Made by a program: the position numbers and the translations under genes. Source: Chloroflexota bacterium (lineage in GTDB: Bacteria; Chloroflexota; Dehalococcoidia; JACQUD01). Taken from it: a stretch of 33,452 bases of DNA. The stretch is taken from NCBI GenBank assembly GCA_016210485.1, contig JACQUD010000045.1:1-33452 (forward strand), given 5' to 3'. This document shows, one piece after another, positions 19,931-32,074 of this stretch. The notes under the pieces are model-generated. The model did no database searches. It saw nothing but the letters and a program-made list of their open reading frames with translations, and had not been told where the DNA came from. Numbering within the stretch: position 1 is the stretch's first letter; each line of letters starts with the position of its first letter.

Positions 19931-21226
19931 ATGCGCAAGGCTGTAGTCTCAGGTATCTTCCTCGTCCTTATGGGGCTGGTGTTCATTCTGGTCTTTTCTG
20001 CCTGTAAAGGCGCTGAGGGTCCCCAAGGGCTCCAAGGGCCTCAGGGGCTACAAGGTATCCAGGGCGTGGCAGGCCCCTCGGGGCCAGCCGGCGAGAGGGT
20101 GGAACTGACGGCTCTGGAGGCCATCGCGGCGGATACCCCACCCGTGCTGGACGGCGTCCTGGAGCCCCTCTGGCTTCAGGCTACCCCTCTCCTTATAGAC
20201 GTAGACAACGGGGCCAACCTGGTCGATGGTCGGACCAGTGTGGAGATGCGTGCCCTTTACGATAATGAAAACGTTTACTTCATAGCGACATGGGCCGACC
20301 CCACGGAGTCCACCCGCCGCATGCCCTGGCAGAAGCAGGCCGACGGCTCTTGGAAGAAGCTCGCCAGCAGCACCACGCATCAGGAGAACCTTTACTATGA
20401 GGACAAGTTCGCCCTGATCTGGGACATCAAGATAGCTGACTTCGCAAGTGTGGGCTGCACCGCCACGTGCCACCCTGGTGAGGAGGCCGCCAGCGGCTAC
20501 GGTAGCAAGTATACTCTGAACGTCGATGGGCTGGGCGACATCTGGCATTGGAAGGGGGTACGCACAGGCTCCGTGGGACAGATAGACGATCAATACCTGG
20601 ATGGCAAACGCCCCGCGGAGGCGGCAGAGGCCGGCCGCCACAGCGATCCCAAGACAGGCGGCGGCTACTCAGATAACCAAAACGCTGCCAAGACAGCCCC
20701 GCAATATGCCCTGCCTAACAACGTCAAGGCCAACCCCGGCGGCCCTTACTGGATTAAGGACGCCGAGAAAGTCGCCGTGAACGAGGCCAGCTATCAGACG
20801 GGTGACGAGGTTCCCAGCATCATCGTGGCCCCCTTTACTGGCGACCGCGGCGACCTCCCGGCTATGTCGGTCTGGAGCGATGGCAAGTGGACCCTGGAAT
20901 GGTCGCGCAAGCTGACTACAGGCTCCCAGTATGACGTCCAGTTCAGCGACCTGGCCAAGGCCTATCCCTTTGGCCTGGCCGTCTTCGACAATGCCCAGGT
21001 CAACCACGCCTGGAGCCCGGGCGTCTACACCTTGAAGTTCACTCCTGCGGTGGCGCAGGGTCCGGCCTTCCCACCGACCATCCCCGCCAACCACGCCGGC
21101 CGCACTACCTGCGCCATATGCCACGCCACTGGCGTTGGCGGCGCTCCCCAGTTCGCGGCCGCTCCCGACCACACCAAGGTCATAGACGCCATAGACACCT
21201 GCCAGGCCTGCCACAAGGGCCCCTAA
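19931..21226 (+). CDS. Lipoprotein c-type cytochrome: collagen-like linker plus ethylbenzene-dehydrogenase-related (EB_dh) haem-binding domain and C-terminal CxxCH pair
   Basis: 431 aa; signal/lipobox ...LVFSACKG; GAEGPQGLQGPQGLQGIQGVAGPSGPAG triplets; VDGRTSVEMRALYDNENVYFIATWADPTES, GCTATCHPGEE, KWTLEWSRKLTTGSQYDVQF...FGLAVFDNAQVNHAW; CAICH and CQACH. Confidence 0.85.
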   Translation: MRKAVVSGIFLVLMGLVFILVFSACKGAEGPQGLQGPQGLQGIQGVAGPSGPAGERVELTALEAIAADTPPVLDGVLEPLWLQATPLLIDVDNGANLVDGRTSVEMRALYDNENVYFIATWADPTESTRRMPWQKQADGSWKKLASSTTHQENLYYEDKFALIWDIKIADFASVGCTATCHPGEEAASGYGSKYTLNVDGLGDIWHWKGVRTGSVGQIDDQYLDGKRPAEAAEAGRHSDPKTGGGYSDNQNAAKTAPQYALPNNVKANPGGPYWIKDAEKVAVNEASYQTGDEVPSIIVAPFTGDRGDLPAMSVWSDGKWTLEWSRKLTTGSQYDVQFSDLAKAYPFGLAVFDNAQVNHAWSPGVYTLKFTPAVAQGPAFPPTIPANHAGRTTCAICHATGVGGAPQFAAAPDHTKVIDAIDTCQACHKGP

Positions 21227-21246
21227 CCGTCTAAACCTGCGGCGGA

Positions 21247-21277
21247 GGAGAGGGGAGGGCTATTTGCTCTCCCCTCT
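21247..21277 (+). terminator. Probable terminator hairpin downstream of the first cytochrome gene
   Basis: GAGAGGGGAG (21247-21256) pairs perfectly with CTCCCCTCTC (21268-21277); followed by pyrimidine-rich TCTGTTGTC. Confidence 0.55.
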
Positions 21278-21396
21278 CTCTGTTGTCAGGACAGGAATAG
21301 CCTTGCCGGGCGTCTCTCTAAAGTAAAGCCTGCAGGCCCCGCGCTTCCATTGTAGCGGTTTAAGCGATAAGCTGTAGTGATTTCAGCGACAAACTA

Positions 21397-21425
21397 TTGA
21401 CATCCTCAGAGTAACGTGATAACAT
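21397..21425 (+). promoter_or_regulatory. sigma70-type promoter of the second cytochrome gene
   Basis: TTGACA (21397-21402), 17-nt spacer, TAACAT (21420-21425); part of a 107-nt ungapped duplicate of the 19827-19933 leader. Confidence 0.85.
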
Positions 21426-21497
21426 TCACACGGTTTTAGGAAAAACTTCACATAATTTTTACCCCTGGGGTAGCTCCGGGGGAAAGAAGGAGGCAAT

Positions 21498-23744
21498 GTG
21501 GGCAAGAAGGCGGCTCTCGGTCTCATAGTAACGGTCCTCTCGGTAGCACTTCTCTTATCCTTCGCAGCCTGTAAAGGCCCTACAGGCCCGGAGGGGCCAC
21601 AAGGTATTCAGGGCGTAGCAGGCCCCACAGGCACCAGCATTGGCACCATAGAGGGCAAGGTTACTGCTCTGGCAACGGGCAAAGGTGTTGAGAAGGCCTC
21701 TGTAACGACCAATCCTGTAACGGTTTCCGCTACAACGGACGCCGATGGTAAGTATAAAATAGAGAACGTTCCGATAGGGGGCTATTCCATCAAGGCAACG
21801 GCGGCGGGCTATAACGCAGCGAGTTCCCAGGCATCTATCACTGCAGGGAAGTCCGTCACCGCCAACTTCGCCCTCGCAGTCGAGGAGCCTTTCGCCCTGG
21901 CCAAGGTCAGGGCAGTGTCTTTCCGTACCAACGATGGGGAGAAGTACCCCGCAGGGACGCTGCGTTTGACGACTCATTATCTCTTCGATAAGACGCCGAC
22001 GATGACTCACAATGAGAACGATATTGTTACCTCCGGACTCCCCAATGTGGGCGTAGGCTCCTACGTATATTTGGAGGGGAGAGAGGCAGACCACGCTGAC
22101 AAGGCGCTGTCTGGCTGGGAGTGGAGCGTTGTCGGCCCGGGCGAATCCACGGTGACTGTGGAGAATCCGACTTCCCGAACGCCCAGGTTCATGGCCAGCA
22201 AGACAGGCAAATATGAGGTTAAAATAAGCGCCACGAATGCGGACGGCGTGAAAGCCTCCAGCGAGCTGGTGGTCTTCGCCGGCACTTATGTCGGCCAGGC
22301 GGTCTGTATCACCTGTCACAGCGGGAGCGTCATGCCCGATGTCTTCGCCGAGTTCCAGCAGACAGGCCACACCACCAAGCTCATAAACACCTACGCTAGC
22401 TACTCTCCGACCAGCGACTACTGCATAGGCTGCCACACCACGGGTTATAATGAGTCAGACAAGGCGGGCGGCTTCGATGACCTGGCCAAGCAGGCTGGCT
22501 GGGATTCGACCAAGGAGAGCCTCACCGCCTGGCTCAAGAACAACAAATGGACCGTTGACCAGATTATGAACTCTATCATGGGCAAGCTGGCCAACGTCCA
22601 GTGCGAGGCCTGCCATGGCCCCGGTCAGATACACGAGGCGATACTCACTGCCAAAGAGACTACGGCTCTCATGCAGCCCGGCGTGTGCAGCCAGTGCCAT
22701 CCACAGGAGGCCCAGTGGCGTAACTCCGGACACTCCAACACTGGCTCCGTCCAGATGCATATGGCGGAGGGCACTTCCTGCGTAGAATGCCACACCGGAC
22801 AGGGATTCGTGGAGGTGAAGATACGGGGCAATGCTCCTGTATTCCCGAGCCAAGCGACCGCGGAGCAGCCGGCTACCCTGGCTGAGCCCAGCCAGCAGGC
22901 TCCCGTGGCCTGCGCCGCCTGCCACGACCCTCACGCCTTCCCCGAACCCTTCAACAAGGGCACTGCCGATAAGCCCAACATAGCCTCTCTCCAGTTGAGG
23001 GTGTATGGCAATGTAACTATGCCCAACGGGGCAACTGTCAATGCTCAAGAGTCCGCCGTCTGCGTGAGCTGCCATGCCAACAAGCGGGACCTGGCTTACA
23101 AAGCGAACTACCTGGCGGGCAAGAATAGCCGGGGCCCCCACGACAACGCCCAGGCAGACAGCTTCTATGGCGTAAATGCCGCCGCCTTCGACTTCGGCGG
23201 TTCCCCCTACTCCAGCTCGCCTCATAAGGCGGTGGTGACGGAGGGCTGCATCCAGTGCCATATGGCTCCCAATCCCCCAGCGCCGGCGGGCGCTGTGGCC
23301 GACGGCGTAAAGGTTGTTAGCTCCCACGGTGCTCTGGTGCTCTACACTGCGGGCGACCACACCTGGAGCATGAGTGGCGCTTACGGAGATACGACTATAG
23401 AGAACATTGGGGCTTGCACCGGGTGCCACGCGGGCCTGACTACCTTCAACCGACCTGCCTACGGCGACTACGATGGCGATGGCGTGGTGGAGGGCATCCA
23501 GGACGAGGTAACGGGCTTGCTGAAACTGGTGGCTGCTCAGTTGCCTGTGAACGCTGCGGGCACGCGCTTGGCGCCGAACGCGGCCGGAGTTACGGAGCTC
23601 CAGCGCCAGGTGATGTGGAACTACGATCTCATCAACAACGATGGCAGTTTGGGAGTGCACAACGCCGCCTACGCGGTGCAGGTGCTCCAGAGGACATACA
23701 AGCAGATTACGGGCAACGACGTGCCCGGGGCTACCATTCGCTGA
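21498..23744 (+). CDS. Multihaem c-type cytochrome lipoprotein (nine CxxCH) with collagen-like linker, CarboxypepD_reg-like and Ig/PKD-like domains
   Basis: 748 aa, GTG start aligned with the ATG of the paralogous leader; lipobox ...LLSFAACKG; GPTGPEGPQGIQGVAGPTG; GTIEGKVTALATGKGVEKASVTT...ATTDADGKYKIENVPIGGYSIKATAAGY; CITCH, CIGCH, CEACH, CSQCH, CVECH, CAACH, CVSCH, CIQCH, CTGCH. Confidence 0.9.
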   Translation: MGKKAALGLIVTVLSVALLLSFAACKGPTGPEGPQGIQGVAGPTGTSIGTIEGKVTALATGKGVEKASVTTNPVTVSATTDADGKYKIENVPIGGYSIKATAAGYNAASSQASITAGKSVTANFALAVEEPFALAKVRAVSFRTNDGEKYPAGTLRLTTHYLFDKTPTMTHNENDIVTSGLPNVGVGSYVYLEGREADHADKALSGWEWSVVGPGESTVTVENPTSRTPRFMASKTGKYEVKISATNADGVKASSELVVFAGTYVGQAVCITCHSGSVMPDVFAEFQQTGHTTKLINTYASYSPTSDYCIGCHTTGYNESDKAGGFDDLAKQAGWDSTKESLTAWLKNNKWTVDQIMNSIMGKLANVQCEACHGPGQIHEAILTAKETTALMQPGVCSQCHPQEAQWRNSGHSNTGSVQMHMAEGTSCVECHTGQGFVEVKIRGNAPVFPSQATAEQPATLAEPSQQAPVACAACHDPHAFPEPFNKGTADKPNIASLQLRVYGNVTMPNGATVNAQESAVCVSCHANKRDLAYKANYLAGKNSRGPHDNAQADSFYGVNAAAFDFGGSPYSSSPHKAVVTEGCIQCHMAPNPPAPAGAVADGVKVVSSHGALVLYTAGDHTWSMSGAYGDTTIENIGACTGCHAGLTTFNRPAYGDYDGDGVVEGIQDEVTGLLKLVAAQLPVNAAGTRLAPNAAGVTELQRQVMWNYDLINNDGSLGVHNAAYAVQVLQRTYKQITGNDVPGATIR

Positions 23745-24499: not shown

Positions 24500-27073
24500 T
24501 CAGGTTACAGTGAAGGTGGAGCCACTCTCTGTCTTGGTCACCTCGATGCGTACCGGGAAGGCCTCTTTCAGCTCCTCGATGTGGGTGATGACCAGCACTT
24601 TCTCGAAGTCGTCCTGGATGGAGGTTATGGCCTCCACGATGCTGTCTCGGCCAGCGCTATCCTGAGTGCCGAACCCCTCGTCGATGATCAGGATGGGGAG
24701 GGGTGCCCGAGCACGGCGGGCCAGGAGGCGGGAGAGGGCGATGCGCAGGGCCAGGTTGATGCGGAAGGCCTCGCCTCCGCTGAACATCTCGTAGTTGCGA
24801 GTCCCTAGCTCGTCGGCGATGAGGATGTCCAGGGTCTCTATAGGCTCTCCCTTCCCTGCCCTCCGGGGCCTCTGGGCCTCTAGCGTGAGGAACATCCGCC
24901 CCCCCGTCATCCGGGTCAGAAGCTGATTGGCTTCGGCCTCTACTTCGGGGAGAGCAGATTCGATAATGAGGGCCGGGACTCCTCGGTGGCTGAAGGCTAG
25001 GGCCAGCTCCTCATAGATATCCTTCTCTCGAGAGACTAGGTGTAGCTCCCTCTCCTTTGAGGCCAGCATTCCTTCCAGGGCTAGGCATCGCTCAAGTTTT
25101 TGCTGGGCAGCGCCCAGCCGCCGGTCCGCCGCCTCCTTTTGGCTGGAAGTTTCTTTAAACGTTGCCTCAGCCTGGCGAAGCTGCGCCGAGGCCTGGGGCA
25201 GGCCCTGTAGTTCCTGGCGTAGCTCTTCGATTCTTTGAGCTAGGGCGCGAAGAGAGCTGTCCAGCGCCTCGGCCAGGCTTCGAGCCTGGGCCAGGGCGGC
25301 TTCCTCTTGGGGGATAAGCTTCTCGGCTTCCCTCAGTCGCATCAGGTGGGCTTCATAGGGAGTCAGCTCCCGAATACGGCGCTGGGCCTGGAGATGCTGG
25401 GCCTCGTCATAGCCCAGCTCGGCCATCTCCTGCCCCAGCCTTTGTAGCTCCTGGCGCTCCTGGTGGGCGAAATCCTGCGAGCCCAACCTGGCTCTCATCG
25501 CTTCCAATAAAGGGCGGTGTGCCTCCGTAGCCTCTCTGGCCGCCACGGCTTGGGCCACGTCTTTTTTCAGGGAGGCGTCTCTGGCTTGGGCTCGTGCCGT
25601 CTCCTGCTTTAGGCGAACCTCCCCATTCTCCACCTCCTCTTTCAGGGCCATCAGCTCCCTTCCCTTCTCAAGGATGGCCTCTTCTGCCTCCTTGAGGGAT
25701 CGCTCCTGCCCCAATATCTCATCATGGAACAAGGCCTGAAGGCGTGCTCTATCCTCCTTGGATAGGGGCCGCTGGCACAGGGGGCACAAAGCCTCCTCGG
25801 GCTTCAGCATGTCCAGCTTGCCCTGGAGGTCGCTGATCTCATCCCGCGCCTTATCACCCCGAGACTGGAGGCTCTGGATTTGAAGGGCGAGGCCGGAGGC
25901 CTGCTGTCTTTTTGCTTTCAGCCCCTCTTCCTGCCTATATAGGGCCTCCAGGTGTTTGGCTATCTCTTTCAACTCTTTCTGCGCCACCTCCAGGCCTGAT
26001 ACCTGCGCTTCCAGCTTGTCCAGCTCGGCCTGGGCCAGTCTTTCCTGGGTGGCCAGGTCGCTCCTGATTCGCTCCACCGCTGCCTGGAGGCTGGCGTGAC
26101 GCTCTCTCAAGCTCAGGAGCGTATGGAGCTTGTGTCCCAGTTCGTCGTTGGCTTGCCTCAAAGAAACTAGCTCTCGGTATCCTGTCTCCACCTCCTGAGC
26201 CTGGGAGAGGATGCCCTGGTATTCCTGCATTTGCTGGAGGTGGCGATGAGCTTGGCTCTCCCAGGAGCGGCACTCAGCTTCCTTTTGGGTCCTCTCGCCA
26301 TCCAGTTGGCCCAGTTCCTGCCCTTTTATCTCCAGTTCCATCGCCGACCGGCGGAGGTTATCCACGTTTCTCTCCTGGACCTGGCGGCGGCTCTCCACAG
26401 CCTCCAGGAGGGCTTGGGCCTCCTGAAGCTCAGCCTCGTAGTTGGCTTTCAGGGCCAGCTCCCGGCTCAAGCTTTCAATCTCACGTTTCAGCGCCTCCTC
26501 CTCAGCCTCCCGCAGTTTGAGGTGGTCTTTGGCCATGGCTTCCAGCCTGTCGTAGAAGCCGAGGCCCAGGATGTTGCTCAGGATGTCCTTGCGCTGGGCG
26601 GGGGGTCGGTGGGTGAACTCATCGGCCCTCCCCTGGAGGAGGAAGGCGCTGTTAATGAAGGTGTCGTAGTCCAGGCGCAGGATTTCCAGGAGGATCTGCT
26701 GCGTTTCTCGGAGGCTGTTGCCGGCGATGGAGCGGAAGCCTCCGTTATGGGCTACCTGGAGTTCTAGGAGGCTCTGGCCTGGCTGGCCGGGGCGGCGGCC
26801 CCGGGCGCGCTTGCGCAGGACTCGGTAGCGCTCCTTTCCCTCCAGGAACTCTATCTCTACCTCCATCTCCCCTTGGCTATAGTGTATGAGGTCATCGTCG
26901 CTGGCAGCCCGGGACTTTCCCCACAGTGCCCAGGTCATGGCCTCCAGGAGGGCGGACTTGCCGTGGCCATTGTCGCCGCAGAGGCAGGCCACGTGGACGC
27001 CCTCCAGGTCGAGGGTGGGGACTCCCTCCCGGTAGCACATGAAGTTGCGCAGGGAGAGCCTGAGGGGGATCAC
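24500..27073 (-). CDS. sbcC: SbcC/Rad50-type exonuclease ATPase subunit
   Basis: 857 aa; N-terminal LSLRNFMCYREGVPTLDLEGVHVACLCGDNGHGKSALLEAMTWALWG (Walker A), coiled coil with zinc hook CPLCQRPL, C-terminal NYEMFSGGEAFRINLALRIALSRLLARR (signature) and PILIIDEGFGTQD (Walker B). Confidence 0.95.
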   Translation of the reverse strand: MIPLRLSLRNFMCYREGVPTLDLEGVHVACLCGDNGHGKSALLEAMTWALWGKSRAASDDDLIHYSQGEMEVEIEFLEGKERYRVLRKRARGRRPGQPGQSLLELQVAHNGGFRSIAGNSLRETQQILLEILRLDYDTFINSAFLLQGRADEFTHRPPAQRKDILSNILGLGFYDRLEAMAKDHLKLREAEEEALKREIESLSRELALKANYEAELQEAQALLEAVESRRQVQERNVDNLRRSAMELEIKGQELGQLDGERTQKEAECRSWESQAHRHLQQMQEYQGILSQAQEVETGYRELVSLRQANDELGHKLHTLLSLRERHASLQAAVERIRSDLATQERLAQAELDKLEAQVSGLEVAQKELKEIAKHLEALYRQEEGLKAKRQQASGLALQIQSLQSRGDKARDEISDLQGKLDMLKPEEALCPLCQRPLSKEDRARLQALFHDEILGQERSLKEAEEAILEKGRELMALKEEVENGEVRLKQETARAQARDASLKKDVAQAVAAREATEAHRPLLEAMRARLGSQDFAHQERQELQRLGQEMAELGYDEAQHLQAQRRIRELTPYEAHLMRLREAEKLIPQEEAALAQARSLAEALDSSLRALAQRIEELRQELQGLPQASAQLRQAEATFKETSSQKEAADRRLGAAQQKLERCLALEGMLASKERELHLVSREKDIYEELALAFSHRGVPALIIESALPEVEAEANQLLTRMTGGRMFLTLEAQRPRRAGKGEPIETLDILIADELGTRNYEMFSGGEAFRINLALRIALSRLLARRARAPLPILIIDEGFGTQDSAGRDSIVEAITSIQDDFEKVLVITHIEELKEAFPVRIEVTKTESGSTFTVT

Positions 27074-28671
27074 AGCTTTATTTCCCGGCCCAGCTCAGGG
27101 ATGCGAACTTCTATGCCTGTGCCCGCCAGTTTTTCCCCGAAAATCTGTGGTTTCTCCGTATGAATAGGTAAAACTACTTGTGGGTGGATGTCTTTTATCA
27201 TTTGGATAAGCTCCGGCCCGCTGGCGTGGCCCGAGGCATGAATATAGATGGGCTCATGGTGAGGCGCGTTGATGTGGAAGCGTTCTAGCCAGCGCTTCAA
27301 TCTCGCCTCGTCCAATTTCATTTCTTCGTTGAAGGGTTCGCTCCGGGCCCCAATGAAAACACTTCCAGATGGTGGCTCCAAATCGATTAGCTCGTTGAAG
27401 TCGAAGAAGTCCATGTGGACAATGTATTGAGTGGGATTTTGGCGGATCTCATAGGCCCTCACCCCTCTATCGTAATGTTCGGTCCTGATGGTCGAAGCGT
27501 CCCCACGGCTCCACTTTGTGCTGAATCCTATCGCATATTTGTTGCTCACATAGTCCTGCTTGCTATAGAGCATACTCTCTTTTCTTTCCAGATAGACCCG
27601 CACGCTCTTTTCCGAAAGCACGTCGGTGATTCCGGACTCAGGAAAGTCCTTGAGCTTGTTGAGCAAATAGGCAAGCTTGGGGGAGATAACCAGGGTGCGT
27701 CCCGTCTGCTCTGCCACAGTTTTCAGTGTTTGGTATCTGGTGGTATCTTTCCAGGCAAATCCAACCATAACTAAGCCAGCGCTACTAGAGACTAGTTTTC
27801 TGCACCCTTCTTCAACATTCAACTCGCTGTCTGGGGCGTCATCGTCTATTCTCGTGCCCTCGGTTATTAAAATATTTGGCCTTAGATTTCTCACTTTCTT
27901 CCAAAAGCCCTCGGTGTAATCGTTTCTGCGTCCGTGAAATCTCAAGTCTCCGGTATACAGCACACGCTGGCCATCTGACAGGCTGAGCAAAAACGATGCA
28001 CCTCCAGGAACAGAATGATCGACAGGAATGGCTTCGACCAAGATGTTTCCTATACTTATCGGTCCAGCCAAGGTGTTAAATTGGCGCGGGCGTGGCTCAC
28101 CTGAAGTGAGGTCGAAGGCTCCTGGGAAAAATGCGGTTTTGCCTGTGCGCTTAAGGCTTTTGCCTTTTGCGGCTGTGAACTCGTACTCGAATCCGCCTCT
28201 GCCCAGGTCTTCCGCAACCTCTATGGTAGCTTTAGTTATCTCGGTGCAAAAGATGGGAATCTTTTCGTCCAATAGGGAGATGTGCTTGAAGTGATCCTCG
28301 TGGGTGTGTGAGAGGAGAACAGCATCAACGAAGGGTTTACCATCTCTTTCCCTTATTATTTCGTCATAGCTCTTGACATTGGTCTCCCAGAGCGAACTGT
28401 CGCCCATGCCATGCTCTTTTAGTACCTCGTCGATGCCTTCGACCTTCAGGAGGTCTGACCTATATATGCCGTCCACTCTGGGTACTATCCCGAGCCTGAG
28501 CTGGTCTCGAAGAGCGTTATTGGTCCTGGGTTGCAAAAACTCTTCGTAAAAATCCCCCATTCTGTGGAAGGAGATGCCGAAATCGAGGAAAAGCCTGGTT
28601 TCAGCGTCTTCTATCAGCACTTTGTTGCCCCCCACCTCTCCCACCCCGCCGTAGAAGGTCAGCGAAGTCAC
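27070..28671 (-). CDS. Metallo-beta-lactamase/beta-CASP nuclease, RNase J-like
   Basis: 533 aa; TFYGGVGEVGGNKVLIED, LLSHTHEDHFKHISLL (HxHxDH), VDHSVPGGASFLLSLSDGQRVLYTGDLRFHG, IHASGHASGPELIQMIKDIHPQVVLPIHTEKPQIF (beta-CASP C-terminal motifs). Overlaps sbcC and sbcD by 4 nt each. Confidence 0.9.
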   Translation of the reverse strand: MTSLTFYGGVGEVGGNKVLIEDAETRLFLDFGISFHRMGDFYEEFLQPRTNNALRDQLRLGIVPRVDGIYRSDLLKVEGIDEVLKEHGMGDSSLWETNVKSYDEIIRERDGKPFVDAVLLSHTHEDHFKHISLLDEKIPIFCTEITKATIEVAEDLGRGGFEYEFTAAKGKSLKRTGKTAFFPGAFDLTSGEPRPRQFNTLAGPISIGNILVEAIPVDHSVPGGASFLLSLSDGQRVLYTGDLRFHGRRNDYTEGFWKKVRNLRPNILITEGTRIDDDAPDSELNVEEGCRKLVSSSAGLVMVGFAWKDTTRYQTLKTVAEQTGRTLVISPKLAYLLNKLKDFPESGITDVLSEKSVRVYLERKESMLYSKQDYVSNKYAIGFSTKWSRGDASTIRTEHYDRGVRAYEIRQNPTQYIVHMDFFDFNELIDLEPPSGSVFIGARSEPFNEEMKLDEARLKRWLERFHINAPHHEPIYIHASGHASGPELIQMIKDIHPQVVLPIHTEKPQIFGEKLAGTGIEVRIPELGREIKL

Positions 28672-29930
28672 GGCATCGTCTCCTGGCCGATGGCTTCCTG
28701 GATGAGTCGCTCACCGTATTCCTGGAGCGTTTGCGCTCTCTCCGGGGCTGTGCCCCTGACCTCCAGGTAGTGGCGCAGGGCCACCGCCGGCGTCAGCCCT
28801 GGGCCCGGCTCCAGCCCGCGCCTGGGCCGGCCAGTCGACTCCACCTCCCAGGCGATGGCGGCCACGAAGTGGGCGGGGGCCAGGGCCTTCCTCAGGGCCG
28901 ATTCGTCAATGAGATGGCGGTCATCCTCGGCCACCTTTATCTTCAGGCGGACGATGGCATCCTCTATCTTGTAGCGGGCGATGGCTCTGAGGAGGGCGTC
29001 AGTGGGGCTGGGAGGAATAGCATCGGCTTCTATGGTGAGGAAGGGTCGGGACTCCACGGGGTGGAAGCTCCACTCGGCGCGCCTGCCTGCTGGCTTCGAT
29101 GGGTCTATCTCCACCAGGCAGAAGCCCTTGGCCTCTCCCTCCTCACTGAAGTCTATGGCCTGGAGGCTACCGGAGTAAACGATGGGGGGGGCCTCGGAGA
29201 GGGCCTGGTGGCGATGGATGTGGCCCAGGGCTACGTAGTCCAGGTAGGGGTGATAGAGGCTGCTCTTGAGGAAGGCGATGTCGTGCCCCAGCATCATGCC
29301 ACGTTCCGAGCCGAACTTCGCCGAGTCCACGTGGAGGTGGCTGGACAGGACGGCGGGGATGTCCTCCCGCAGGTTTCGATATTCCTCTTGGAGCCAGGCG
29401 GCTACGATGTCTCTGGCCCTCTGGTTCATCTGGTCCAGGGGCAGGTTCTTGTGCTCCTCTTTTGCCAGGAGGGCGCGGCGCTGTGCCCAGGGCAGGGCGA
29501 TGACCTGGAGGGGGCCACTGTGGGTCTGGAGGAGGTAGGTGCCGGGGCGGGAGGCCACGGTTACGTTCTCCAGGGCCAGGGTGTGGCCCTTCGACGAGCT
29601 CAGGACAGCGAAGATCTCCATGGTGTGGGCGCGGGAGGGGGAGGCGGGGAGGTCGTGGTTGCCGGCCAGGAGGAAGACGTGGATGCCGGAGGAGGCGAGC
29701 CTGGAGATGCGGCGGGCGAACTCCCGCTGCTGGGTCTGGGAGGGGTCGCGAGATTTGTAGGCGTCGCCGCAGAAGAGGAAGACGTCGGCTCTCTCCTGGA
29801 GGGCGAAGTCCACGGCTTCATCCAGGGCGGAGAGGGCGTCCAGGAGGCGGGTGTTGAGGCCGGTGGCCGGGTCTATGCGGCCATAGGTCTCCACGCCCAG
29901 GTGAAGGTCAGAGAGGTGGAGGAGTTTCAT
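28668..29930 (-). CDS. sbcD: SbcD/Mre11-type nuclease subunit
   Basis: 420 aa; MKLLHLSDLHLGVETYGRIDP, FLFCGDAYKSRDPS, FLLAGNHDLP, VLSSHLHVD, YVALGHIHRHQ: calcineurin-like phosphoesterase motifs of Mre11/SbcD. Confidence 0.94.
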   Translation of the reverse strand: MKLLHLSDLHLGVETYGRIDPATGLNTRLLDALSALDEAVDFALQERADVFLFCGDAYKSRDPSQTQQREFARRISRLASSGIHVFLLAGNHDLPASPSRAHTMEIFAVLSSSKGHTLALENVTVASRPGTYLLQTHSGPLQVIALPWAQRRALLAKEEHKNLPLDQMNQRARDIVAAWLQEEYRNLREDIPAVLSSHLHVDSAKFGSERGMMLGHDIAFLKSSLYHPYLDYVALGHIHRHQALSEAPPIVYSGSLQAIDFSEEGEAKGFCLVEIDPSKPAGRRAEWSFHPVESRPFLTIEADAIPPSPTDALLRAIARYKIEDAIVRLKIKVAEDDRHLIDESALRKALAPAHFVAAIAWEVESTGRPRRGLEPGPGLTPAVALRHYLEVRGTAPERAQTLQEYGERLIQEAIGQETMP

Positions 29931-30406: not shown

Positions 30407-31180
30407 TTATTTGATCGTCGTTTTCGAAGAGGAAGAATTGAACTTGACCAATGCATCCCAATCTATTTTCCCATCCGTGACGAAATTCTTGCTGAATTCG
30501 ACGGTGAACCTGTTCACTATTTGAGCGTACTCGTTGAAGAATTCTGCATTCCTCTTTCTGGCCGTATATCCCAGTGGCTTGATAATCTTTAGATAGAGGT
30601 CTTTGTTACCCGATATGAATTCCCAGAACTTTTGACCACAGTATTTGTAGTAATCACCCTTATCAGGATTATTATCACGGCCGTAGCAGCATCCATTAGC
30701 TGCCACAATTCGAATCTCGGAGTTTCCTGTTCGAAGAGCCCGCTTCGCCTTGTTGAAATCGTCTTTCATTTTTCTAATCTGACTACTATTGCCCCAATTG
30801 GGCCCTGATTTTATTGCCACTATATATCGTGTACCACCTTTATCGAATTCCAAATCAATTCCTTCTGTCGAGGACTTCCAGCCTCCATATACCCGTCGAT
30901 TAATGAAAACGGCTAGTCCTTCCAGGAAGTTCCCGAATAGGGCCTCTTCCTGTGACGATAAATGGGCGTCAAGCAGCATTTTCACTAAATCCTGGGCAAG
31001 TAGTACATTCTTGGCCTTAAAGAGGTAAGGATTCTTCCTTCTCAGAATCTGACTCAATCTCAGGCCCCGCAGACTCTGTAGTCTACTTGAATGGAAGCCG
31101 CCGATATTTTCCTGAACGTAAGCCTTTACATCATCGATCTTTATCGGGTTCATAATTTTTCCTATTTGCGCTATTTCCAT
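30407..31180 (-). CDS. Type II restriction endonuclease, PmeII-like family
   Basis: 257 aa; FKAKNVLLAQDLVKMLLDAHLSSQEEALFGNFLEGLAVFINRRVYGGWKSSTEGIDLEFDKGGTRYIVAIKSGPNWGNSSQIRKMKDDFNKAKRAL (D...xIKSG-like PD-(D/E)XK core); 9 nt downstream of a DNA methyltransferase. Confidence 0.8.
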   Translation of the reverse strand: MEIAQIGKIMNPIKIDDVKAYVQENIGGFHSSRLQSLRGLRLSQILRRKNPYLFKAKNVLLAQDLVKMLLDAHLSSQEEALFGNFLEGLAVFINRRVYGGWKSSTEGIDLEFDKGGTRYIVAIKSGPNWGNSSQIRKMKDDFNKAKRALRTGNSEIRIVAANGCCYGRDNNPDKGDYYKYCGQKFWEFISGNKDLYLKIIKPLGYTARKRNAEFFNEYAQIVNRFTVEFSKNFVTDGKIDWDALVKFNSSSSKTTIK

Positions 31181-31189
31181 TCCTTTGGT

Positions 31190-32074
31190 TCACGTGAGTC
31201 TCATAGGTAACTGTGCGTCACTAAGTGGAGTCCCTTTCAATCGAGCCTTGGCCCTCTCTGTGGATTCAATTGCCAGATCATAATACTGCTCCATTGCCTC
31301 AATGCCCATGTAATATCTCCGTAGCTGGATGCAAGCTAAGGCTGTTGTTCCAGACCCCATAAATGGGTCTAGCACTATGTCGCCTTCTTGAGTAAACAGT
31401 TTGATGAACCAAGTTGGCAGGGTGATCGGAAATGACGCGCTATGTTTGCGGTTGGAGCACTCTGTAGCGAGATGCAAGACATTAGTTGGGTAGGCAAAAT
31501 CCCTCCCGATCCAGTGAGAAACATTCTTGCCAAAACCGCTACCCACATGGGACTCATCGCGGATGCGGTCGGTCTGACTAAGTGTTGCGAGACGCTTTGT
31601 TGCCCAATCGCCCATTGGCACTGCAACTGCCTCTTGGAACATCTTAAACTGCTTTTGCTTTGTGAAGTGCAAACAACGCTCCCAGGCATCTCTGAAGCGG
31701 TTAGGCCACTTGCCAGGGTAGCAGTTTTTCTTGTGCCAGATGTATTCCTCTGTCCAAAGCCATCCTTCTTTCTTCATGGCTAGGATTAGCTCTAGCACAT
31801 AGGTCTGCCGCTCACCGTTGCTCGCTCGCTCTTTAATGTTTAGGACAAACGAACCTTCCGGTTTGAGGACACGCTTTAATTCAAGTGAAATGGGAAGGAA
31901 CCATTCTACATACTTGTTAATTGGAACCCCTGTATAGGTCTTTTTTCGGTTATCGGCATACGGAGGTGATGTGAATACCAAGTCAATGCAAGCATCGGGG
32001 AACGTTCTGAGGACTTCAAGGCAGTGTCCGCAGATGATTCTATCGAGTTCCAATGTGCTATCGTTCATAGGCAC
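31190..32074 (-). CDS. Site-specific DNA methyltransferase, beta-class, SPPY-type (probable N4-cytosine)
   Basis: 294 aa; LVFTSPPYADNRKKTYTG (motif IV) precedes DIVLDPFMGSGTTALACIQLRRYYMGIE (motif I), i.e. beta-class motif order. Confidence 0.9.
   Translation of the reverse strand: MPMNDSTLELDRIICGHCLEVLRTFPDACIDLVFTSPPYADNRKKTYTGVPINKYVEWFLPISLELKRVLKPEGSFVLNIKERASNGERQTYVLELILAMKKEGWLWTEEYIWHKKNCYPGKWPNRFRDAWERCLHFTKQKQFKMFQEAVAVPMGDWATKRLATLSQTDRIRDESHVGSGFGKNVSHWIGRDFAYPTNVLHLATECSNRKHSASFPITLPTWFIKLFTQEGDIVLDPFMGSGTTALACIQLRRYYMGIEAMEQYYDLAIESTERAKARLKGTPLSDAQLPMRLT

Follow-up and report, generated by a model that had tools for sequence, protein, structure and literature searches.

Introduction

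The yhaONM genes of Bacillus, a putative double-strand-break repair cluster that is listed as LexA-regulated (PMC3896406), may be taken as the nearest working analogue of the gene pairing described here, namely that of a beta-CASP metallo-beta-lactamase (MBL) protein with SbcC or SbcCD. In that cluster, likewise, a ribonuclease gene (YhaM, a 3'-5' exoribonuclease) is grouped with an SbcD-like gene (YhaO) and an SbcC-like gene (YhaN/SbcE). YhaM is composed of OB and HD domains and is not a beta-CASP protein.

Two other systems bring a beta-CASP enzyme together with repair proteins. In the RecJ3/4-aRNase J complex of Haloferax, which is important after DNA damage (PMC10470531), a beta-CASP RNase binds nucleases of DNA-repair type; this complex differs from the present case in being archaeal and in its partners (RecJ, Cdc48, and SAMP). 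Members of the SNM1/Artemis/Apollo group share the beta-CASP fold, and Apollo interacts with Mre11 and Rad50 (PMC5564657), but their motif C is Val (DNA type) and they possess a DRMBL domain, whereas the protein studied here shows neither feature. The Apollo and aRNase J cases indicate that beta-CASP enzymes can accompany repair complexes. Among individual proteins, RNase J shares the MBL and beta-CASP fold, the catalytic motifs, and the His at motif C, but lacks the EE-x3-PR...YRxD insert of our family, while the EF2904 family (PDB 2az4, Enterococcus faecalis) shares the intact beta-CASP motifs, the motif C His, and the closest fold, with a length of about 430 aa compared with 533 aa. The literature searched, which excluded most subscription journals, contained no description of a beta-CASP gene with SbcCD.

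A three-gene operon in a Dehalococcoidia contig

The window, i.e., the whole 33,452-nt stretch of DNA that was analysed, is one contig of a 1.24-Mb assembly (69% complete) of a Chloroflexota bacterium, and the named sequences closest to it come from Dehalococcoidia and other Chloroflexota. According to its open reading frames, sbcD, a beta-CASP gene, and sbcC form a tandem series on the minus strand (Table 1); the order, the strand, the coordinates, and both 4-nt overlaps are exactly those given in the preliminary description. The AGGAG sequence lies 8 nt upstream of the GTG start of the beta-CASP gene, and we infer that the three genes are carried on one transcript and translationally coupled. 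SbcD scored above its family cut-off (TIGR00619, 144.5 bits versus 77.65). Both the AAA_23 domain and the Rad50 zinc hook of SbcC exceeded their Pfam cut-offs, with its TIGR00618 score (277.7 bits) falling under the cut-off of 478.5. In contrast to the yhaONM proteins, SbcD and SbcC of the window score as SbcCD-type. Elsewhere in the window, positions 19931-23744 encode an ethylbenzene-dehydrogenase-like haem domain protein and then a large multihaem cytochrome with a carboxypeptidase-regulatory-like domain.

Table 1 Features of the sbcD/beta-CASP/sbcC locus and its surroundings in the window.
Feature	Positions	Strand	Evidence
sbcD (Mre11-type nuclease), 420 aa, ATG start	28668-29930	-	Metallophos E 2.6e-14; TIGR00619
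beta-CASP metallo-beta-lactamase protein, 533 aa, GTG start, SbcC-linked family, subclade A	27070-28671	-	Lactamase_B_2 + RMMBL
sbcC (Rad50-type ATPase with zinc hook), 857 aa, GTG start	24500-27073	-	AAA_23 E 7.7e-22; Rad50_zn_hook 28 bits
4-nt overlap, stop of sbcD / start of beta-CASP gene	28668-28671	-	sequence
4-nt overlap, stop of beta-CASP gene / start of sbcC	27070-27073	-	sequence
AGGAG, Shine-Dalgarno-like, putative for beta-CASP gene, within 3' end of sbcD	28680-28684	-	sequence
Motif 2, H122-T-H-E-D126-H127 (metal ligands)	28291-28308	-	alignment of subclades A, B, C
Motif B (H482) to motif C (H504)	27160-27228	-	alignment; motif C = His, RNA type
EcoO109I-type endonuclease + N6/N4 methylase, between glyS and sbcD	30407-32074		RE_EcoO109I E 1e-88

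The middle protein belongs to a separate beta-CASP family

The middle protein matched Lactamase_B_2 (39.7, cut-off 27) and RMMBL (32.9, cut-off 21.6) in Pfam, and beta-CASP motifs 1-4, A, B, and C are all present, with the catalytic motifs intact. Motif residues are invariant across the three subclades of the family (A, B, and C, see below), the exceptions being G451 and family f7, in which the motif-2 Asp is lost. Every row of the alignment has His at motif C, and between motifs 1 and 2 the family has an insert, EE-x3-PR...YRxD. Given the rule of Callebaut 2002 as cited in PMC3095777, by which His at motif C marks the RNA type and Val the DNA type, the middle protein is of RNA type, motif C being a correlate of RNA specificity and no proof of it. 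Of the substrates suggested in the preliminary description (DNA ends, RNA, or RNA:DNA hybrids), these sequence features favour RNA over DNA.

With the RNase J model TIGR00649 the protein reached 43 bits against a cut-off of 400, and in the tree it was separated from RNase J, aCPSF1, and aCPSF2 (SH-aLRT 96), where the six RNase J rows grouped together (support 100) at the end of a long branch. Canonical RNase J identity was rejected on the score and the separate branch, so that the earlier label "RNase J-like" holds for the fold and not for membership. Pfam found no KH domain, and the MBL fold starts at residue 1, unlike in aCPSF1 with its N-terminal KH domains. The nearest predicted fold neighbour was EF2904, followed by RNase J, CPSF73, and Cas14, as judged from an AlphaFold model of moderate quality (pLDDT 72, eight sequences). 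EF2904 (2az4) was also the closest solved structure by sequence (E 1e-20, 22% identity). EF2904-like Chloroflexota proteins formed separate deep branches in the tree, which did not include EF2904 itself, and no SbcC was found at the loci fetched for them. A phage origin was rejected, as viral and phage records gave only weak, partial matches of EF2904 type. By its sequence features, the middle protein belongs to a separate beta-CASP family and is distinct both from canonical RNase J and from the SNM1/Artemis DNA nucleases.

Recurrent adjacency to sbcC

In an even sample of the class (294 Dehalococcoidia genomes), 62 genomes have a long member of the beta-CASP family. In 27 of these, from 19 families, the gene precedes sbcC in the same orientation, while chance would be expected to give approximately 0.01 such cases. 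The distance to sbcC is at most 466 nt in 25 of the 27 linked genomes, and at many linked loci the genes overlap or are separated by less than 30 nt. This recurrence led us to reject chance adjacency or an assembly artefact, and the comparison with other genomes proposed in the preliminary description thus revealed a recurrent, non-random arrangement.

The layout is variable. The commonest consists of beta-CASP-SbcC alone, with SbcD located elsewhere in most such genomes checked. SbcD-beta-CASP-SbcC was found in the window, L024, L037, and L038, and SbcD-PD-(D/E)XK nuclease-beta-CASP-SbcC in L022, L026, and L027, with the last three of these genes in L023. Furthermore, L176 has SbcD-beta-CASP alone, and one Bipolaricaulota genome (L028) has consecutive genes for Mre11-like, Rad50-like, and beta-CASP proteins. 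Because layouts vary around SbcC, the steadiest neighbour is SbcC itself and not SbcCD as a pair. The view of the middle protein as a third partner of SbcCD therefore survives in part: a functional link of the protein to SbcC/SbcD is likely from this genomic context, while its constant neighbour is SbcC and an obligate subunit is not supported.

The PD-(D/E)XK nuclease (Cas4/AddB-like) lies directly before the beta-CASP gene (L022:1766-2530, L026:7045-7809, L027:386-1150, and L023:7111-7959), and between SbcD and the beta-CASP gene wherever SbcD is present.

Repeated pairing and a degenerate copy

Members linked to sbcC occur in each of the three beta-CASP subclades. Subclade A contains the window, f123, f138, and one Methanophagales and one Bipolaricaulota sequence; subclade B contains f19 and another Methanophagales copy; and subclade C contains other Chloroflexota. 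AU tests rejected a single clade of sbcC-linked beta-CASP proteins (p 2.7e-56) as well as a single clade of the SbcCs beside subclade-A proteins (p 7e-36), and with them a single origin of the linkage. There is strong discordance between the tree of SbcC and that of the beta-CASP proteins; for example, SbcC of L023 (partner in A) groups with SbcC of L115 (partner in C) with support of 100/99. Given linked members in three subclades and discordant trees, either the pairing arose repeatedly or partners were swapped on several occasions. The beta-CASP gene of the window has a GC of 50.4 compared with 61.8 for sbcC (11 points lower; GC3 58.6 versus 75.6), the largest fall among 28 loci, as would be expected of a transferred gene. 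In addition to aCPSF-type proteins, Methanophagales genome G640 (L025, L157) encodes two family members, of which one falls in subclade A and the other close to subclade B.

In family f7 (L042, L159, and L160), the motif-2 Asp is replaced by Gln or Arg and the family insert is gone, and these copies are presumably catalytically inactive. The gene nevertheless still lies 13-21 nt before sbcC and is under purifying selection, with a dN/dS of approximately 0.22 (0.21 for sbcC). Retention of a degenerate gene in this position under such selection points to a role beyond catalysis in f7. The copy in G451 is likewise degenerate, without linkage to sbcC.

Copies without sbcC and the distribution of RNase J

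SbcC is present in 43 of the 62 genomes with the beta-CASP gene and in 142 of the 232 without it, i.e., there is no enrichment (Fisher p 0.30). At the threshold used, no SbcC match was found in G016 (98% complete) or in several genomes of genus g54 (89-99% complete), though the beta-CASP gene is present. As some near-complete genomes have the gene but no SbcC match, and as the two are not found together more often than expected, the protein is not an obligate third subunit. Copies in other (Anaerolineae-like) Chloroflexota and most Bipolaricaulota have unrelated neighbours, and full-length plasmid relatives from Thermus, Rhodothermus, Thermococcus, and Methanothermobacter (L213-L218) lie among mobile or defence genes. 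The family must therefore have a function independent of SbcC, its association with which is frequent but not obligate. In two Bipolaricaulota genomes (L206:1-8654, L209:4943-9845) the beta-CASP gene adjoins an SNF2-type helicase, and one of these regions also has an Eco57I-type methylase and a Y-family polymerase.

Such copies, together with the RNA-type motif and fold, are also what would be expected if the protein served RNA turnover in general, either as a second RNase J or in place of one, with its gene sharing the sbcC transcript purely for co-regulation and the protein itself not acting as a partner of SbcCD, a reading that we consider possible though doubtful. The distribution of canonical RNase J bears on it in both directions. 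Separate RNase J genes scored over the cut-off in 36 of 41 relatives, and, with both searches counted, at least ten other linked families carry canonical RNase J in the same genome as the linked gene, as does the L023 genome. On the other hand, none was found above the cut-off in the window genome (assembly 69% complete) or in three f123 and four f19 genomes carrying the linked gene, the RNase J-negative assemblies with a linked gene being 66-93% complete. Unlike most of the class, genomes G000, G449, G598, G439, G444, G465, G553, G543, and G018 (f1, f123, and f19) gave no canonical RNase J above the cut-off. With so many absences, loss of RNase J in the f19 and f123 lineages is suggested, and the lineage of the window appears to be without canonical RNase J. 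On whether the middle gene is its genome's only RNase J, the outcome is thus split: it may be so, with a possible substitute role, in the window, f123, and f19 genomes examined, and is not so in the other linked families that have a separate one. Moreover, G018 (f19, 99% complete) has neither canonical RNase J nor the beta-CASP subfamily, and the gene is therefore not a mandatory replacement. The recurrence of different subclades before sbcC is also hard to reconcile with co-regulation alone.

Unlikely alternatives: DNA-directed and defence roles

A DNA nuclease that acts with SbcCD on ends or hairpins, as a bacterial counterpart of Artemis/SNM1, would fit the operon context, the co-precipitation of human SNM1B/Apollo with Mre11 and Rad50 (PMC5564657), and the ability of the Haloferax complex with beta-CASP aRNase J to cut both RNA and ssDNA (PMC10470531). 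Nevertheless, this is unlikely given that motif C is His and not Val, that Pfam detected the RNA-type RMMBL and no DRMBL domain, and that SNM1 or Artemis structures were absent among the 50 best fold matches, the same features on which Artemis/SNM1 identity was rejected.

The restriction-modification pair directly upstream (Table 1) had prompted the suggestion of a defence role. The pair has a low GC (43 and 48%), and RGGNCCY sites number 70 in the window compared with approximately 106 expected. As L024, L026, and L037 have glyS near sbcD without a restriction-modification match, the pair looks like an insertion; no match to it was found at any linked locus examined. PADLOC gave no match for the beta-CASP protein. 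SbcC, which has the zinc hook, scored weakly against Lamassu LmuB (81 bits), and LmuA had no match among the genes scanned, so the locus was not classed as Lamassu. An anti-phage system formed with the neighbouring restriction-modification genes is therefore highly improbable, despite the position of the pair, the weak LmuB score, and plasmid homologues near toxin-antitoxin, restriction, and Avs genes, because the beta-CASP protein is unmatched in PADLOC and the pair is missing from related loci.

Proposed role and significance

We propose, with an even chance of being right, that the beta-CASP protein acts as a ribonuclease-type accessory of SbcC/SbcCD that would remove RNA where the complex acts; its substrate, its contact with the complex, and its part in repair are what we infer from sequence. 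SbcD, a metal-dependent, ribonuclease-type beta-CASP nuclease, and SbcC would be made from one message, the SbcCD ATPase-nuclease would hold and trim hairpins or DNA ends, from which the beta-CASP enzyme would clear RNA, e.g., nascent transcripts, RNA ends, or the RNA:DNA hybrids that form where collisions or breaks occur. The accessory role is favoured by the recurrent adjacency, the repeated pairing, retention in f7, the intact active site, the RNA-type motif C, RMMBL, and the fold neighbours, and is weakened by the lack of enrichment with SbcC, the copies without sbcC, and the unrelated neighbours elsewhere. More tentatively, the locus may encode a bacterial machine of Mre11-Rad50 type in which a dedicated but swappable subunit, the beta-CASP protein, clears RNA at DNA ends; that subunit would have been exchanged several times, in some cases from archaea-related stock, and reduced in one lineage to a non-catalytic structural part.

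Little is understood of how bacteria handle RNA at broken or colliding DNA, and what is known of RNA-type beta-CASP enzymes comes chiefly from RNA decay. The presence of different enzyme versions before sbcC in different lineages suggests that RNA removal and DNA-end repair may cooperate, in parallel with Bacillus yhaONM and the contacts of human Apollo with Mre11-Rad50. For the EF2904 family, which has had a structure since 2005 and is uncharacterised, the sbcC context suggests a possible function. The conserved beta-CASP/SbcC operon offers a handle for a direct genetic and biochemical test of a link between RNA and DNA ends.
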